Assembly (NCBI RefSeq): GCF_003971195.1 | Contig: NZ_CP034593.1 | Location: forward strand, 2,356,001-2,420,000 | Direction of reading: 5' to 3' | Source of the DNA: Flaviflexus ciconiae | Lineage (GTDB): Bacteria; Actinomycetota; Actinomycetes; Actinomycetales; Actinomycetaceae | DNA: 64,000 bases | Part shown: one piece after another, positions 6,622 through 15,364 of the stretch | Position numbering within the stretch: position 1 is the stretch's first letter | Layout of the letters: each line of letters opens with the position of its first letter | Notes under the pieces: generated by a model | Told to the model about the DNA's origin: nothing | Databases searched by the model: none | Seen by the model: the letters and a program-made list of their open reading frames with translations, nothing else | Program-made: the position numbers and the translations under genes

Positions 6622-6709
6622 GGTGGAGTGTCCGAGCGGCCGATGGTGCAGCACTCGAAATGCTGTTTGGTGAAAGCCAACGTGGGTTCAAATCCCACCT
6701 CCACCGCCA
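6622..6709 (+). tRNA. tRNA-Ser (anticodon CGA), CCA encoded
   Basis: The acceptor stem pairs GGTGGAG (6622-6628) with CTCCACC (6699-6705), followed by discriminator G and CCA at 6707-6709. The anticodon stem GCAGCA/TGCTGT encloses the loop CTCGAAA, giving anticodon CGA (codon UCG). A long variable arm (class II) and the T-loop GTTCAAATC are present. The 3' half from 6682 is part of a direct repeat, so the mature tRNA now takes its 3' end from the inserted element. Confidence 0.95.
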
Positions 6710-6722
6710 TAGATTCCCCCGG
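6682..6722. repeat. Left attachment site (attL core)
   Basis: 41 bases identical to 14342-14382, running from the T arm of the tRNA through CCA and on to the 5' arm of the downstream terminator hairpin. With two mismatches the similarity continues to 6737 (56 bases in all). The overlap keeps the tRNA intact after insertion. Confidence 0.92.
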
Positions 6723-6759
6723 GATACCAACGAAAAGTTGGCCCGGGGGAGTTCTTTTT
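6716..6759 (+). terminator. Terminator of tRNA-Ser, 3' arm supplied by the element
   Basis: An 8-bp stem (6716-6723 with 6742-6749) and an inner 5-bp stem CCAAC/GTTGG around GAAAA are followed by TTCTTTTT at 6752-6759. The 5' arm lies in the attachment core and the 3' arm in element-specific DNA. Confidence 0.85.
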
Positions 6760-6786: not shown

Positions 6787-7243
6787 GTGGAGGCAACTCT
6801 AAGCCCATTCCAGCGCACTTAGAGAGCTTCAAAATGAGGCACGGACCGAGGGCGCGAGACACCCTCGAGCGGGCACTAGCGTCTACCGCATGACATTCTC
6901 AAGCGACATTGACCGCGAGCGCATGACGGCTCACATAGACACCGAGGTCGACCACGGCACGGCCTCAAGCGGGCACGGCCCGCACCAGCCTCCCATGCTC
7001 CTCGAGCACCTCGGTAAAGCCCCCGGCACCCCGGCACACTCCCTCGAGCACCGACACCGATACATGTAACGGTGTTACACCTGCGTTACATACACCGTTA
7101 CCAACACCAAACGGGCAAACACTCCCCGCAAGCAACCCGCCCCGCCCCGGCACCACCCCGTCTTTAATATTCAGAAAACGGCTCACAGCCACGTCCCGGG
7201 CCTCACCTGGCATATATCCCTCCGGAGGCTCCTTTGTTCCGTA
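6787..7243. other. Gene-poor left end of the element with GTTAC-rich inverted repeats
   Basis: No convincing gene. At 7066-7101 a 10-bp inverted repeat GTAACGGTGT/ACACCGTTAC with a 16-base spacer contains a second palindrome, GTAAC-GGT-GTTAC (7066-7078). One copy of the element's 11-mer ACCGCGAGCGC lies at 6912-6922. A minus-strand frame 6965-7213 has GGAGGG four bases before its ATG, but it lies behind a terminator and shows no recognisable domain. The stretch could hold an operator or a replication or transfer site. Confidence 0.45.
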
Positions 7244-7270: not shown

Positions 7271-8437
7271 TTAGCGGTTGCCCTTGGCGCGGTTGTGGCT
7301 CATGCAGAGCATTTCGCAATTATCGTCGGTTGTGAGCCCGCCCCGGGACCATGCCGTCACGTGATCCGCTTCCATCTCTTTGAACTTGTAGAGACGGGCA
7401 CGGTTGGCGTTAGATCCAACGGCGCATAGCGGGCAATTAGAGACACCGGCTTCCTTGGCGGCCTCCGTCTGTCGGTCATAGGCGGCCTTCTTCGTTGCGG
7501 CAAAGAATACTCGGACATCGAGGAGTCTCGGGTCCGTCTTGCCTCCGAGGAGATACTCATAAATGCCGGCCGGCTTAAATACCGCCCCGTCTTTGAGGAG
7601 TGCTTGCACGTCCGCGTCGAGCTCGCGGGCGTTGTAGGCGTTGTGATGATACGTCTCGTACAACCGGCCCCATTCGAGGCCTCTCATTGTGGGATCCGGG
7701 ATCCCGATAAACACGCTGTCTATCCAATCAATAACGCTCGTGAAGTATGTATTGAGGCCGTGAATATCGGTGTCCTGACGGTGAGCCGCCATATATCCAT
7801 CGATTGATTGACCGTTAGCCGAGGCAACCCATTCGAGGGCTTCCTCGAGGATCTCCTGCCTCTTAGGGTTACCTCGAACGTAGTGAGACCACTTCTGTAT
7901 TAGGGCATTGTTGGAATTGGAGAACTCGGCCTTCGCGGCCGTGACGAACGGTCCGGAATAGATTGCGTTGCGCAGCTCTTGGTCATTGAGTGGCACCCCG
8001 GCAATGTTGATTGTCTTGAACCATTCTTTGATCTCGGCCTCGGTGCCCTTGCATATGTAGACGAGGAGCTCGTGCTCGAGAATTGAGGTCTGTTCCTCCT
8101 CGGTGAGTGAGGAGAATACTTGCTCACGGCCTCCGTGGATCACCGCGAACTTCCCGGTAATGAAGCGTCCGAGGCTCGTTATTCTTTGTTGTCCGTCGAG
8201 CACCTCGAGCTGGTTCCCGGCGTCCACAAAGTAAATGAGACCGAGGGGATAGCCCTTGAGTACTGAGTCAATAACGGCAACGTCTCGCTTACCGTCCCCG
8301 TAAATGTAGTGCCGTTGGTATTCGGGCTGGATCACTAGGTCACCGCTCAACCCGTAGAGCCCCCGGCCCTCTAGCTCGTTGTAGACAAAGCCGTCGACCA
8401 CTTCGGCGACAGTGTATTTCTTGAGTGTTGTCTCCAT
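7271..8437 (-). CDS. DUF262 domain protein with C-terminal HNH nuclease (GmrSD/SspE-like architecture)
   Basis: 388 residues. The N-terminal DUF262 (ParB/Srx-like) domain has [27 protein letters not shown] at about 36-62 and the nucleotide-binding signature DGQQR at 81-85. A helical middle follows, then a C-terminal HNH nuclease: zinc Cys335/Cys338 (CPLC), catalytic Asp358-His359 in [12 protein letters not shown], Asn373, and C378-xx-H381-N. All expected residues are present. In GmrS/GmrD, BrxU and SspE, DUF262 hydrolyses NTP and gates an HNH-type nuclease that reacts to the modification state of DNA. The start codon lies 3 bases after the stop of the methyltransferase gene, so the two are translationally coupled. 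I infer a restriction-like partner; specificity cannot be seen. Confidence 0.85.
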
Positions 8438-8440
8438 GTC

Positions 8441-9568
8441 CTACGGCCTCCGTTGAATTAGTAGCCGGGCATAGGTCGACTTGAGATTACCGTCCGCGTC
8501 GATGTAGGCCGCGCGTCGGTTTAAATCCCCGGCCTTCGGTGTCTCCGGCCCATATTCGCGTGTCTTGAGCCCGTACTCGTTACCGCGATCCGTAATCCCA
8601 AGGATCTCGAACTGGTCCGGGTTGTACTTGTCGAGGAAGGTAATCGGGACTCCCATAACTCCGGCGTAATCGCTCGGGATCGAGTCGGTAAAGCCAACCT
8701 CTATCGCGTCGTAATTGTCGTATTGCGGATAGCCCGTCTCGCGTATCCGTTCGTGTCGGCTGAACTTGACGTTATCGGCCATTGTCATGAGTTGAACCGG
8801 CTCATGCCTCCGGCCGTGCTCGATATTCGTGAACCACCGGACGCCCTTTACTCGAATGTATTTGCGGCCAGCCTCGTCGACTCGAGTCCCGGCAGCGTTG
8901 AGCGGGTAACTATCGGGGACTCTAAACTCTCGGTCTCCACTTGAGATTGACGGACCAAGCCAGAGCAGATTGTTACGAATGAGTGGGAACACTTCTTTAT
9001 ACGTAATTGCGTTTACATTGCCGATGATCGAGAACTCAACGCCACCTCCGACAAGCCATCCTAGGAACTCTCGAAACAGCGAGAACGGTGGATTAGTGAC
9101 AATGATGTCGGCCTCATCTCGCAGCGCGGTTACCTCCGGACTCCGGAAGTCTCCGTCACCTTCGAGGTATTCCCAGCGGAGATCGTCAATATCGACACGG
9201 CCGTCGCCGGTCACGTCCTCCGGCAGGAGAGTAAACACTCGTCCCCGCTCGAGAGACTTCTCGACGTCGTATATGGGCGTCTCCGTCTCGAACAACGTCG
9301 GCTGGTAGAACGCCGCCCCCGCGTTGCTATTAGGCGCGTAGGACGTTGATATGAGCTTCTTGAGTCCAAAGTCTTGGAAGTGTAGCGCGAAAAACTTTGT
9401 AAAGTTGCTCCACTCCGGATCATCGCAAGGTAGCAGGACTACTTTGTCCCTAAAAACGTCCGGGTCATACTCGAGATAGGCGTTCATCTCCCGCTCGATA
9501 TCCGGCCATTGAGTATAGAACTCGTTTGCTTGCGCTTTACGCGCCGCCCCTAAGTCGGTGTTCCCCAT
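8441..9568 (-). CDS. EcoRI-family adenine-specific DNA methyltransferase
   Basis: 375 residues from ATG 9566-9568, chosen over an upstream TTG (9583) because AAGGGG lies six bases before it. The family hallmarks are in order: NEFYTQWPDIEREM (15-28), VVLLPCDDPEWSNFTKFFALHFQDFGLKKL with CDDPEWSNF at 48-56, GDGDFRSPEV (137-146), and the catalytic NPPF at 159-162 within DIIVTNPPFSLFREF. The C-terminal half carries the variable target-recognition part. It should methylate N6 of adenine in a short DNA site; whether that is GAATTC is unknown. No EcoRI-like endonuclease is present; the coupled downstream gene is DUF262-HNH instead. Confidence 0.9.
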   Translation of the reverse strand: MGNTDLGAARKAQANEFYTQWPDIEREMNAYLEYDPDVFRDKVVLLPCDDPEWSNFTKFFALHFQDFGLKKLISTSYAPNSNAGAAFYQPTLFETETPIYDVEKSLERGRVFTLLPEDVTGDGRVDIDDLRWEYLEGDGDFRSPEVTALRDEADIIVTNPPFSLFREFLGWLVGGGVEFSIIGNVNAITYKEVFPLIRNNLLWLGPSISSGDREFRVPDSYPLNAAGTRVDEAGRKYIRVKGVRWFTNIEHGRRHEPVQLMTMADNVKFSRHERIRETGYPQYDNYDAIEVGFTDSIPSDYAGVMGVPITFLDKYNPDQFEILGITDRGNEYGLKTREYGPETPKAGDLNRRAAYIDADGNLKSTYARLLIQRRP

Positions 9569-9687: not shown

Positions 9688-10182
9688 TCAACCCTCCGCG
9701 AGGCTCTCCAGCTCCACCGCGAGCGCTCGCGGTATCACATCCCCCAGCTGCTCCTCGAGAGTCCAATACTCCTCGCCGTCATCGAGCCACCGCACAACAT
9801 TCGCATAATGGCTATGCCCGGCCTCAAGTGCCCGTCCGCCCTTAACCGAGTAGGTAGCCTCCCGAGGGATCCGCTTAACATCCGGCAGATACATAGCCCC
9901 CGCGAGATATAGCGCGTACGTATCGAGGTCGCTCCCGCCCTGGTTCTCCCACACTCGAGGCGCACCCTCGCCCCAAGTGAGTTGACCTACCCGAACGTAC
10001 CGGCGGGCATTCCCCGGCCGGCTATCGTGCCCGATACGCGTCCAATGCCGAGACGGCACTACCTCCGCGCGGGCAAGCGTGAGAATGTCCTGCAAGCCCG
10101 CGAGAGACATACCTCCGGCTTGGCGGTCCCGAATCATTCCGGGCGTGATCGAGAGACTCCAAAAGTAGGGCGACATAGACAT
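9688..10182 (-). CDS. Hypothetical protein of the element
   Basis: 164 residues from ATG 10180-10182 (GAAAGG about ten bases upstream; an in-frame TTG at 10200 is less likely). I do not recognise a family. The sequence is soluble and rich in Trp and Tyr (TWGEGAPRVWENQGGSDLDTYALYLAGAMYLPDV), with an acidic C-terminus. There is no signal peptide or membrane helix. It is 119 bases upstream of the methyltransferase on the same strand and could be co-transcribed with it, so it may be an accessory of that unit. The 18-bp palindrome ACCGCGAGCGCTCGCGGT (9716-9733) lies inside its 3' end. Confidence 0.6.
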   Translation of the reverse strand: MSMSPYFWSLSITPGMIRDRQAGGMSLAGLQDILTLARAEVVPSRHWTRIGHDSRPGNARRYVRVGQLTWGEGAPRVWENQGGSDLDTYALYLAGAMYLPDVKRIPREATYSVKGGRALEAGHSHYANVVRWLDDGEEYWTLEEQLGDVIPRALAVELESLAEG

Positions 10183-10489: not shown

Positions 10490-10532
10490 ATGACCGCGAG
10501 CGCGTCCCGAGATTGAATGCGCTCGCGGTCAT
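10490..10532. repeat. Perfect 14-bp hairpin built from the dispersed element motif
   Basis: ATGACCGCGAGCGC (10490-10503) and its reverse complement (10519-10532) flank a 15-base loop; five more base pairs (TAGAC/GTCTA) occur outside a small internal bulge. No T run follows on either strand, so it is not an ordinary terminator. It sits just downstream of the 10554-11201 gene. Confidence 0.7.
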
Positions 10533-10553
10533 CGTGTCTAGTGCCGTATTGAA

Positions 10554-11205: not shown

Positions 11206-11634
11206 TCACCGTCCCCTCGAGAGCGTCGACATAGCCGATGTATCGGGCCCTATGTCTCCCCGGCGTCGACGTGCACGGTATCGCCGTCGTACGGGTGCCC
11301 TGTGCGGCGTGAGAGTGTTCTCAAGCCCGGCCGGTAGGGGAGCCGGGGCGCTCGCGGTAAGCCACGTGTACGGGCGTCCTGTGACGGGGTGTGGTGACGG
11401 CGGCACTACTCCGATAAGGGCGCGCGAGTGCTTCTCCCACGCCTCCCGAATAGCGCCCGGGTCGACTGTCGCCGTGCGTAGTCCGCCATACGGTGACTTA
11501 GCCGGCCCGCTCGCCATGTCGACATGACGGCACGGCACTACTGGCCAACCGAGAAGGCCCGCATAGGTGACCGCAAGGGCCACGTAGTCGCCCCGTATGT
11601 TCCCCGCCGTGAGTAAGTTTGATATTGTGGACAT
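11206..11634 (-). CDS. Short primase-polymerase (PrimPol N-terminal)-like protein, probably truncated
   Basis: 142 residues from ATG 11632-11634 (AAGGGG seven bases upstream); an alternative ATG at 11676 overlaps the previous stop as TAATG. Residues 15-80 (DYVALAVTYAGLLGWPVVPC... KSPYGGLRTATVDPGAIREAWEKHSRALIGVV) match the start of the bifunctional DNA primase/polymerase N-terminal domain seen in actinobacterial plasmids and islands. The acidic catalytic part expected afterwards is missing; an Arg-rich tail of odd composition follows. In another frame the last 60 bases read ARYIGYVDALEGTVTA and end in an ATGA-type overlap with the next gene, which suggests a frameshift or decay. Confidence 0.45.
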   Translation of the reverse strand: MSTISNLLTAGNIRGDYVALAVTYAGLLGWPVVPCRHVDMASGPAKSPYGGLRTATVDPGAIREAWEKHSRALIGVVPPSPHPVTGRPYTWLTASAPAPLPAGLENTLTPHRAPVRRRYRARRRRGDIGPDTSAMSTLSRGR

Positions 11635-11675
11635 ATGGGCACCCCTTACCGGGTGCTCTTCCCCTTTGTGTTCCA

Positions 11676-11909
11676 TTAGTCCAAGCCCTCCCAGCGGCTC
11701 ACCGCAAGAATGAGAGAGCTCGCGAGCGCGAGTGCCTCGCCGGGATCGAGCATTAGGACGGGCGGGGTTGAGAGATCCGCCCCCTTCGCCCTTACCCCGA
11801 TAGGTCTCGCCGTGCGCGAGGCAACGGCAACCGCATAGGTAGGGTTAGGGTCGACCGGAGTGCCTGAGGCCGTCTCCCGGCCATTTGTGGACGATACAGG
11901 TATGGTCAC
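11676..11909 (-). CDS. Small hypothetical protein of the element
   Basis: 77 residues, no recognised family. The start codon overlaps the stop of the upstream HTH gene by four bases (ATGA), and its stop overlaps a possible start of the next gene (TAATG), so it sits inside a compact operon. The C-terminal part (PPVLMLDPGEALALASSLILAVSRWEGL) is a likely amphipathic helix; the N-terminus is polar. No signal peptide is seen. Confidence 0.5.
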   Translation of the reverse strand: MTIPVSSTNGRETASGTPVDPNPTYAVAVASRTARPIGVRAKGADLSTPPVLMLDPGEALALASSLILAVSRWEGLD

Positions 11910-12844: not shown

Positions 12845-12944
12845 TCTTTCCCCTCCGTTACCTATCTCCCCGGCCCGAGGTGCCCGCGCTCGCGGTCATC
12901 CCCCGCCCAAAGTCCACCAGTAGCCCTAGGGCACGCTCCCGGCC

Positions 12945-14180
12945 CTAGTTTGCCACCGCCCTACGTTCATCGAGCGACGTCACGCCAGCGGGCCGTTGCA
13001 TGAGATTAGAGATAACCTCCGCCGCCTCCTCGAATTGCTCGGCATATGTGTGCGTATAGCGCCGTGTGATCGACGAATGAGTATGCCCCAGGATCTCCGA
13101 GACAACATGCTCCTGAACGCCATTCGCGAGCAGAATACTCGCCGCCGTATGCCTGAGGTCATGCGGTGCTACGTGACCAATACCGGCACGCTTACCGGCC
13201 CGCGTGAGTGCTTGCCCATACGTTGACGTCGGCATGTACTTCGCCGGGTCATCCTTAGCCGGGAAAAGGATCCCACGCTTACCGGCCACTCGAGCCCATT
13301 CCAATAAGGCGTGAGCCATAGCCTCCGGCACGGGCAACGTGCGAACACTCTTAGGTGTCTTAGGTGTCTTAACGTGCAGGCTCTTACCGTCATTCGAGGC
13401 ACTTTGTTTCACCTCAAGCCATACGGCCCCGTCCGCGTGCTCGATAACGCTTCCTCCCACTAGGGCCCGTACCTCCCCGATACGTAGCCCCATACGGCCC
13501 TGCACCATCGCCATGACCGCATGAGTCTCCGACAACTCCGCCGTGAGCTTCTCGAGCTCCCCGGACGTGAATGCCCGGGGCTCCCGCTTGGCTTGCTTAA
13601 CCTTGCTCGGCTTCACCGGAGCGGCCTTGATACCTTTCAAACCCTTAACCGGGCACGGGTTACGCGGTATGAGGTCATCATTAACGGCGCTATTCAAGAT
13701 ATTCGCGAAAAGGTCATACGCCTTCTTACGGTTCCCCGGCGCACCAGGTGCGAGCGTAACGGCCCAAGACTTAATGTCCGGCGTTGTGATCGAGGAGAGT
13801 GCCACCTCGCCCCAGCGGGGCAATAAATGAGTCCTAAGCCGTGACCGTTCGGGCCGTTCGGTGTTCGGACTCCAGTCCCGCGTGGCAAAGAATGCCTCCG
13901 CGTACTCCCCGAACGTGAATGCGAGTCGGCGTGCCTCGGCGTCGGCAGTGGCTTGCTCGGCCTTCTCTTGCTCGGGGCTCTTCCATGTCCCGGCCGCGAT
14001 ACTTGATTGCACCGTTGCTAGCCAGTTGTCTGCTGCGCGCTTCGTCGTGAATGTTACCGGGCCGTTGATGTAGTTACGGGTCCCGTCATCCTTGAACGGC
14101 ACCTCGGGATGAATGTACCGGGCCTGCATTCGACCACTAGGGAGCGTTCTTATCATTCCGAATCCCCGTCGTGTAGCCAT
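12945..14180 (-). CDS. int: Tyrosine recombinase (site-specific integrase)
   Basis: 411 residues. Residues 1-65 form the arm-binding AP2-like N-terminal domain (MIRTLPSGRMQARYIHP... FTTKRAADNWLATVQSSIAAGTW), 90-170 the SAM-like core-binding domain, 200-390 the catalytic domain with Arg233 (GRMGLRIGEVRAL), His340-xx-Arg343 (HDLRHTA), His366 (LGHTHSS) and nucleophile Tyr375 (RRYTHTY). All catalytic residues are present, so it should be active. It reads inward from attR, with its start codon 162 bases from the core and one arm-type repeat 16 bases upstream of its ATG, where integrase binding could also repress its own promoter. This is the enzyme that would insert the element into tRNA-Ser. Confidence 0.95.
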   Translation of the reverse strand: MATRRGFGMIRTLPSGRMQARYIHPEVPFKDDGTRNYINGPVTFTTKRAADNWLATVQSSIAAGTWKSPEQEKAEQATADAEARRLAFTFGEYAEAFFATRDWSPNTERPERSRLRTHLLPRWGEVALSSITTPDIKSWAVTLAPGAPGNRKKAYDLFANILNSAVNDDLIPRNPCPVKGLKGIKAAPVKPSKVKQAKREPRAFTSGELEKLTAELSETHAVMAMVQGRMGLRIGEVRALVGGSVIEHADGAVWLEVKQSASNDGKSLHVKTPKTPKSVRTLPVPEAMAHALLEWARVAGKRGILFPAKDDPAKYMPTSTYGQALTRAGKRAGIGHVAPHDLRHTAASILLANGVQEHVVSEILGHTHSSITRRYTHTYAEQFEEAAEVISNLMQRPAGVTSLDERRAVAN

Positions 14181-14341: not shown

Positions 14342-14382
14342 GTGGGTTCAAATCCCACCTCCACCGCCATAGATTCCCCCGG
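14342..14382. repeat. Right attachment site (attR core)
   Basis: 41-bp duplicate of the tRNA-Ser 3' end including CCA. It is preceded by non-tRNA sequence, so it is a partial tRNA copy and not a gene. Confidence 0.92.
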
Positions 14383-14418
14383 AATGCCAACGAAAAGTGG
14401 TTTCCGGGGGAATTCTTG
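14376..14418 (+). terminator. Terminator-like hairpin at attR
   Basis: A 9-bp stem CCCCCGGAA/TTCCGGGGG (14376-14384 with 14402-14410) uses the attachment core as its 5' arm, as at attL. It is followed by AATTCTTG, a weaker T tract than the left copy has. Confidence 0.65.
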
Positions 14419-14539: not shown

Positions 14540-15364
14540 TTAGAGGCCGACCGCGTTCACTCCGTAGGTGGCCTGCTCGAGGGTGAACCCTTCATACAGC
14601 AGTTGGTCGATGAGGCCCTGGCGGGAGAATCCCATGAGCTCCAAGTAGCTTTCCGCGGATAGGCGAGCCTGCTCATTCCAGTCTGGATTGACGGCATCCA
14701 CGCCGTAGGTGGCCTGTGCGTTGGTGAACCCTTCGTACTCAAGCTGGCCAATAAGTCCCGTGCGGGAAAAAGCCGTGAACTCCAGATAGCTTTCTGCAGA
14801 GAGTTGCGCCTGCTCGTCCCAGTTCACGCTGAGGGAGTCGACCGCGAATGTTGCATCGGATGTTGAGTAACCCTCGTATTCGAGCTGGTCGATGAGGCCC
14901 TGGCGGGAGAATGCCGTGAACCGGAGGTAAGACTCGGCTGAGCGCACCGCGTTCTGCTGGGAGACTGAGAGGTCTGAAGCGGGAGCTTCCGTGGGTGCGG
15001 GTGCCGGTGTCGTCGTTGGTGCTGGCGCTACGGTCTCGTTCTTAGCGGCCTCCGGGGTGGCTTTCTTTGTCGCCTCGGAAGATGTCGACTCAACGGCGGC
15101 GACGGTGACGTCGTCTGTCGGCTCCTCACTCTGCTCCTCGTCGGTCGTCTGTACCTCGGTGGCCTTTGGTGACTCCGATTCTGATGCCGTGGTTTCAATG
15201 TTGTCTGCAACCTCGGCCGCTTCGGGAGTCTTCTCCGAGGAACTGCCGGTTGCTATGGCTCCAATGGTGGTGATGATGACAACGATGGCGATGGCCCACA
15301 CCCACCATTGTCGGTACCACTTCTTTGTGGCTGGTGGGTAGTAATTCATGGACATGTCAGACAC
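14540..15364 (-). CDS. Membrane-anchored protein with three Ltp (host cell surface-exposed lipoprotein) repeats
   Basis: 274 residues. A short cytoplasmic start, one membrane helix (WVWAIAIVVIITTIGAIATG, about 22-41), a long disordered Thr/Glu/Ala/Pro linker (45-130), then three tandem repeats of about 47 residues, each with SAESYL...FSRxGLIxQLxYEG and ending near ATYGVDAV, as in PF07553. The family includes Ltp of phage TP-J34, a superinfection-exclusion lipoprotein that blocks DNA injection; many bacterial members have unknown roles. Here the anchor is a membrane helix and not a lipobox. It lies 160 bases outside attR and may belong to an older island. An in-frame ATG at 15355 is an alternative start. 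Confidence 0.8.
   Translation of the reverse strand: MSDMSMNYYPPATKKWYRQWWVWAIAIVVIITTIGAIATGSSSEKTPEAAEVADNIETTASESESPKATEVQTTDEEQSEEPTDDVTVAAVESTSSEATKKATPEAAKNETVAPAPTTTPAPAPTEAPASDLSVSQQNAVRSAESYLRFTAFSRQGLIDQLEYEGYSTSDATFAVDSLSVNWDEQAQLSAESYLEFTAFSRTGLIGQLEYEGFTNAQATYGVDAVNPDWNEQARLSAESYLELMGFSRQGLIDQLLYEGFTLEQATYGVNAVGL

Follow-up and report, generated by a model that had tools for sequence, protein, structure and literature searches.

The 64,000-nucleotide (nt) stretch of Flaviflexus ciconiae DNA analysed here, referred to as the window, contains a 7.7-kb element which is integrated at a tRNA-Ser gene and carries two adjoining genes on the minus strand. The first encodes an adenine methyltransferase (MTase) of the EcoRI family, and the second, which follows after 3 nt (8438-8440), encodes a nuclease joining a DUF262 domain to an HNH domain. 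The coordinates of the element, the pair and the tRNA are window positions (Table 1). This arrangement had been described in an earlier note on the same DNA, and it is borne out by matches to PF13651, PF03235 and PF01844.

Table 1 Features of the gene pair, of the element that carries it, and of related loci (L numbers)
Feature	Position	Strand	Evidence or remark
EcoRI-family adenine MTase, 375 amino acids (aa), ATG at 9568, stop at 8441	8441..9568	-	PF13651, 1.3e-125
NPPF catalytic motif, residues 159-162	9083..9094	-	Sequence; N159, P161, F162 invariant in 131 rows
Hypervariable block A, residues 206-244, putative target-recognition cassette	8837..8953	-	Alignment of 167 MTases
Hypervariable block B, residues 325-365, putative target-recognition cassette, inverted in some Bacteroidales	8474..8596	-	Alignment of 167 MTases
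DUF262-HNH nuclease, 388 aa	7271..8437 (stop included)	-	Pfam; full-length PADLOC REase_II, 1.8e-91
GmrSD_N/DUF262 match, residues 35-160 (ParB/Srx-like NTP-binding fold)	7958..8335	-	PF03235 (formerly DUF262), 1e-20
DGQQR motif, residues 81-85	8183..8197	-	Invariant in 113-row and 138-row alignments
Zinc-HNH nuclease domain, residues 335-388 (C335, C338, D358, H359, N373, C378, N382)	7274..7435	-	Pfam HNH and invariant residues
tRNA-Ser (CGA), integration site	6622..6709	+	tRNA call
Attachment repeat, left copy	6682..6749	+	Repeat comparison; overlaps 3' part of the tRNA-Ser
Attachment repeat, right copy	14342..14409	+	Repeat comparison
Tyrosine integrase of the element	12945..14180	-	Pfam Phage_integrase, 5.2e-24
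164-aa open reading frame (P0003) upstream of the MTase, orphan	9688..10182	-	No family match; single self match
Cassette regions (invertible or silent) of relatives	L040:1627-3098; L201:235-1598; L122:907-2446; L119:1675-3098; L043:2378-3957		
Simple repeats in block B, candidate phase-variation tracts (L044, L053, L096, L114, L147, L159)	nt 990-1106 of the MTase gene		

With regard to the MTase, EcoRI_methylase (PF13651) spans residues 6-373 with 419.7 bits, against a curated cut-off of 26.4. The motifs named in the earlier note are located exactly where it had placed them, namely NPPF (159-162) and CDDPEWSNF (48-56) in the MTase, and DGQQR (81-85), C335/C338, D358-H359 and C378-x2-H381 in the nuclease. 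In the latter, GmrSD_N (PF03235) scores 75.1 bits (cut-off 33.2), and the fold matches of the N-terminus resemble BrxU and SspE, as had been supposed. HNH-fold matches span residues 312-388, and the Pfam HNH match (PF01844) covers residues 353-388 (3.4e-6); it is this family, and not DUF1524 (PF07510), which Pfam finds at the C-terminus. Pfam search and fold matches revealed neither a helicase (ResIII/DEAD) nor a PD-(D/E)XK domain in the nuclease. The residues invariant in a 113-row alignment include the DGQQR motif, C335, C338, D358, H359, N373, C378, N382 and K385, with C335 nearly invariant in the wider 138-row alignment. H381 is not conserved, being H, D or C in a 13-row alignment. The fourth zinc ligand is thus variable, and H359/N373/N382 are the more probable catalytic H-N-N residues.

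Automatic annotation labels the pair as Type II, as both PADLOC models, MTase_II (1.3e-91) and REase_II (1.8e-91), match over nearly the full length. The earlier note had reported that no EcoRI-like restriction endonuclease (REase) is present. No match to PF02963 was indeed obtained in the whole genome, but 14 control genomes were equally silent, so the absence is not firmly shown.

The two genes had been regarded as a unit, and this was confirmed on loci fetched by the nuclease alone. These comprised the best 80 of 387 confirmed loci in species-representative genomes and 81 distinct viral loci, the latter being the best 80 of 158 confirmed loci plus one from a second scan. A same-strand MTase lies upstream of the nuclease in 77 of the 80 genome loci and in 77 of the 81 viral loci, and a contig end is found less than 640 nt upstream in six of the seven remaining cases. 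Among 396 genomes of the phylum, the MTase family occurs in 11 and a nuclease match (E<=1e-20) in 10, both being present and adjacent in eight; the MTase alone was seen in G263 (broken), G313 and G383 (at a contig edge), whereas the nuclease-only genomes, G218 and G295, hold weak partial matches of 87-89 bits. Among 396 genomes of the order, 17 contain the nuclease at E<=1e-60, and all 16 loci fetched (our own excluded) adjoin MTase matches, including broken copies and copies truncated where the contig ends. In named plasmids and phages, also fetched by their nuclease matches, 21 of 22 loci carry the MTase (broken in L008, truncated by an insertion sequence in L203), and the MTase-less locus comes from an unverified phage record, where the nuclease itself is fragmentary. 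The pairing is thus nearly obligate. The earlier note had stated that the unit would be refuted if the homologues seldom adjoined each other, and these counts clearly favour the pair. In two loci, two MTases with different blocks precede one nuclease (L141:1615-4004 and L130:1534-3850), and no locus has two nucleases.

This linkage bears on the view that the nuclease is an independent Type IV enzyme, which would attack modified phage DNA in the manner of GmrSD or BrxU, the sometimes phase-variable MTase being a mere genetic companion. Such a nuclease would have no need to read a sequence, and there is precedent for it: PMC12707154 and PMC8565348 describe modified cytosines as the targets of GmrSD and BrxU, whose DUF262 domain is stimulated by NTP (nucleoside triphosphate). 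The window nuclease shares with them the DUF262 N-terminus with DGQQR and a C-terminal His-Me/HNH nuclease. It differs in having a zinc-HNH of the PF01844 family and not DUF1524, in its length of 388 aa compared with BrxU chains of 557-580 residues, and in its adenine MTase partner. The near-obligate linkage, in a fixed order, with one MTase family speaks against an independent enzyme, as does the scarcity of solitary full-length nucleases, none of which occurs in the two 396-genome samples and one candidate, L051, in the collections. We therefore consider this explanation very improbable.

Between conserved flanks, the MTase has two hypervariable regions, blocks A and B, which were delimited in an alignment of the 167 MTases passing length filters (72 of 80 genome loci, 69 of 81 viral loci, 19 of 22 named loci, 6 of 12 further genome loci, and the window). 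In the numbering of the window MTase, block A is flanked by W203-x-G205 and W245, and block B by G324 and Y366. Mantel tests were performed on the 158 pairs left after dereplication, with 500 shuffles. The identity of the MTase core follows that of the nuclease (r = 0.762, reached by 0 of 500 shuffles), whereas the coefficients are about 0.06 for block A (4 of 500) and 0.076 for block B (0 of 500). While core identity rises with nuclease identity from 0.56 to 0.99, the mean identities of the blocks stay at 0.23-0.29 for A and 0.15-0.21 for B in every bin of nuclease identity between 0.3 and 0.8, and are higher only in the closest pairs. Both blocks differ in 95 of the 143 comparisons in which the nucleases are at least 0.8 identical. 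The pairs L119 and L122 illustrate this: their nucleases are one residue apart and their MTase cores 94% identical, while block A is 27% and block B 12% identical.

The blocks also vary independently of each other. Clustering at 50% yields 30 A types and 62 B types, which are joined in 122 different combinations. Several B partners are seen for 15 of the 16 multi-member A types, and several A partners for 28 of 36 B types. The A type of the window has 28 members with 21 B partners, and its B type is paired with 5 A types among 11 members. These combinations indicate that blocks A and B recombine. A segment of the nuclease which would follow the blocks was also sought. No 15-aa window tracks block A in the 158 pairs, and for block B a single marginal window, discussed below, was found. 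A constant nuclease is thus accompanied by a hypervariable region of the MTase, putatively involved in recognition, which is the pattern of Type III systems.

In some relatives, block B is present in more than one copy. Silent block-B cassettes lie behind the MTase on the opposite strand in the Phocaeicola-type loci L040, L119, L122 and L201 and in Alloprevotella L043. They start with (F/V)EILG and end with Y/F-x-R, except that the cassette of L201, found by eye, has a degenerate end. The strict cassette pattern gave no match in 66 of 196 loci, one match in 124 and more than one in six, including L196, which is a chance overlap on the opposite strand; a reversed-sequence control gave no match. 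L043 has an additional cassette on the coding strand, and L070 a tandem second block B, not inverted, inside one MTase reading frame. Both orientations are seen in Phocaeicola massiliensis, represented by a chromosome contig of strain DSM 17679 (L040) and by a plasmid (L201). Outside a 397-nt segment, their identity is 100% over 1232 nt and 99.7% over 4586 nt; the segment itself (98%) is inverted between them, so that different cassettes complete the MTase.

A tyrosine recombinase gene directly follows the nuclease in 8 of the 151 loci with room for it: in 5 of 6 loci with extra cassettes versus 3 of 145 others, or in 5 of 5 loci with antisense cassettes versus 3 of 146. The corresponding Fisher value of 5e-7 overstates this association, because L040, L119, L122 and L201 are close relatives and the loci represent effectively two lineages. 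Based on these observations, we conclude that block B is switched by inversion of the DNA in some relatives within the Bacteroidales, while the neighbouring nuclease stays intact and unchanged. Other relatives may use simple repeats for the same purpose. Such repeats (CA x21, AG x20, GA x13, GAACA x7 and others) were detected in 7 MTase genes out of 167, in six cases within or close to block B, and are absent from all 167 nuclease genes. L122 has a silent cassette which shares its type with the block B active in the window. In the window itself, the cassette pattern matches this active copy alone (8456-8611), with no silent cassette, and the locus, being without sign of inversion, appears to be a fixed member of the family.

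True EcoRI systems were used as a control. Seven EcoRI-type pairs were compared, from E. coli, Klebsiella, Leuconostoc, Staphylococcus rostri, Rhodococcus and two viral contigs. An eighth locus, from Acinetobacter (L216), was left out, its MTase having no match to the M.EcoRI family; in this A. schindleri plasmid (L216:417-2307), an EcoRI-family REase adjoins that MTase. The REases are 0.60-0.91 identical among the six full-length sequences and 0.45-0.60 identical to the truncated one in L212. In all 21 comparisons, the blocks are conserved along with the core (core 0.63-0.86, block A 0.62-0.95, block B 0.76-0.94). In contrast, only 0.28% of 9345 comparisons between DUF262 pairs with nuclease identities of 0.45-0.91 reach both EcoRI block minima. 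Blocks A and B align to residues 187-225 and 297-313 of M.EcoRI. Their conservation in EcoRI pairs and their freedom beside DUF262-HNH nucleases support the assignment of A and B as the putative determinants of MTase specificity. In a Rhodococcus pyridinivorans plasmid (L210:2123-6618), an EcoRI-type REase-MTase pair is accompanied further on by a protein of about 596 aa, annotated separately as DUF262.

These results weigh on the classical Type II explanation implied by PADLOC and automatic annotation, in which MTase and nuclease would recognise the same site independently. It agrees with the PADLOC matches, the compact two-gene mobile unit, the adjacency of the two genes in most loci, and the MTase family shared with EcoRI, PF13651 being present at seven of the eight EcoRI-type REase loci examined. 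The gene order differs, however, as the REase gene precedes the MTase gene in the EcoRI pairs of E. coli, Klebsiella, Leuconostoc and Rhodococcus, whereas the MTase comes first in the DUF262 pair. The EcoRI REase reads sequence and its partner conserves the blocks, whereas the sequence of the DUF262-HNH nuclease does not follow them, although this is an indirect test. Moreover, once block B was inverted, a neighbouring nuclease that read sequence and stayed the same would have all of its sites exposed. As the nuclease remains constant while the MTase blocks are swapped, a plain Type II system with each protein reading the site alone is unlikely, and we assign it a low probability.

The best reading of these comparisons is that the nuclease is steered by the MTase or by its mark, following the logic of Type III or Type I systems with parts of the GmrSD type. 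We see an even chance that the two genes form a restriction-modification system whose sequence specificity resides in the MTase alone. The MTase would read its site through the exchangeable cassettes A and B and methylate adenine in host DNA, whereas the nuclease, with a putatively NTP-dependent switch joined to its HNH domain, would be unable to read the site itself. By analogy with Mod and Res of Type III systems, a complex of the two proteins would most likely find the unmethylated site and fire the nuclease, and phage DNA could thereby be restricted. The more far-reaching proposal of a new restriction-modification type is held a little more tentatively. An EcoRI-family MTase with two combinatorial cassettes, invertible in some lineages, would act as the specificity subunit of an NTP-gated DUF262-HNH nuclease devoid of specificity, and inversion would re-aim methylation and restriction together. 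The earlier note had already proposed a two-gene restriction system, and the conserved mobile unit and the DUF262 fold agree with this, but it had overlooked the swappable blocks of the MTase.

Similarities with Type III systems include the two genes, the constant nuclease, the hypervariable recognition region of the MTase, the phase variation of the MTase gene and, as predicted for the window pair, a nucleotide-dependent nuclease which needs its MTase. Some of these Type III features are described in PMC13076061. The window pair differs from Type III in that its DUF262-HNH nuclease lacks a detected helicase or PD-(D/E)XK domain and its MTase is of the EcoRI family, with two blocks, and not a Mod protein. 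Type I systems with inverting hsdS genes resemble the family in having two independently recombining recognition blocks and inversion beside a constant nuclease, for which sections of PMC5903667 and PMC5608340 provide precedents. The pair family has no separate HsdS or HsdR, however; the 3' end of a stand-alone MTase of the EcoRI family serves as its switching cassette.

A different steering mechanism is suggested by SspABCD-SspE, in which a DUF262 switch and a nuclease are likewise tied to a mark on host DNA, as described in part of PMC9646914; that mark is a phosphorothioate, whereas adenine methylation by a single MTase is predicted here. An SspE-like nuclease would read the N6-methyladenine (m6A) made by its partner in any context, with no need for a complex with the MTase. 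Binding of the mark and NTP hydrolysis would free the nuclease from self DNA, and unmarked DNA would be nicked or cut. Such a mechanism requires m6A recognition to be context-free, and hosts with other m6A marks, such as those of Dam, would blind the nuclease. Dam marks occur in Pasteurellaceae and Aeromonas, which harbour L058 and L209. We regard this mark reader as rather unlikely.

Several observations weigh against specificity residing in the MTase alone and against steering through a complex. The mark-reading nuclease accounts for the same data. The EcoRI control represents one specificity by descent, in seven pairs of which one has a truncated REase. The Mantel coefficients of the blocks, although small, exceed those of most shuffles, so that a trace of co-inheritance remains. 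The nuclease window at residues 276-290 tracks block B marginally (0.063, with a threshold of 0.053), and a weak contribution of the nuclease to specificity is conceivable. Finally, the nuclease of L051 is intact without an MTase in the 4 kb upstream, in a contig which stops 125 nt downstream.

The earlier note had placed the pair on a mobile element at the tRNA-Ser, and this proved correct. The attachment repeat (68 nt, 90% identity, with the initial 41 nt identical) is present at the 3' end of the tRNA gene and again 7.66 kb away, and the element encodes a tyrosine integrase. Both flanks of the element are matched in three of the five other congeners, where they are separated by just 49, 57 and 85 nt, which identifies the element as an insertion; in the remaining two, the right flank has no match. 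The nuclease is present in one of six genomes of the genus. The 164-aa protein encoded upstream of the MTase had been suggested as a third component of the system. We rejected it, as a protein search of 151 candidates returned the protein itself alone and no match was found in Pfam, PADLOC, NCBIfam or PHROGs.

Other features of the element were also noted. A short Prim-Pol-like protein (11206-11676), which matches the first third of the Prim-Pol domain only (2.5e-9), is probably a replication protein of the element in truncated form. Within the element, TGACCGCGAGCGC, a sequence of 14-15 nt, and its complement occur in both orientations at 6910-6924, 10490-10533 and 12885-12900, with two copies at 10490-10532 forming an inverted pair 15 nt apart; this repeat is possibly an operator or a replication site. 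Just beyond the element, 14540-15364 encodes a secreted-looking protein of 274 aa with three 47-residue repeats (141-nt units).

As a class, the pair is already caught by the automatic Type II models of PADLOC. In the literature searched, which lay outside REBASE, preprints and subscription journals, we found no description of the separation of specificity from the nuclease, of the DUF262-HNH pair or of an invertible EcoRI-family MTase. In Prevotella intermedia ATCC 25611, an MTase homologous to that of EcoRI (51% identity) has an REase gene directly downstream; part of PMC5608340 reports that the expected GAATTC methylation was not observed and suggests that the system is inactive. If that locus belongs to the DUF262-pair family, free blocks could possibly explain the missing GAATTC methylation. 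If our interpretation is correct, a family annotated as Type II, with at least 8000 nuclease homologues (E<=0.001), would work by specificity of the MTase alone and a steered nuclease. GAATTC could then not be assigned by homology, and such genes would hold no sequence-specific REase to be harvested. The pair would instead constitute a compact, possibly retargetable, two-protein system. DUF262 switches of the GmrSD type would thereby gain a role in methylation-guided restriction, and an EcoRI-type MTase switched by inversion would be added.
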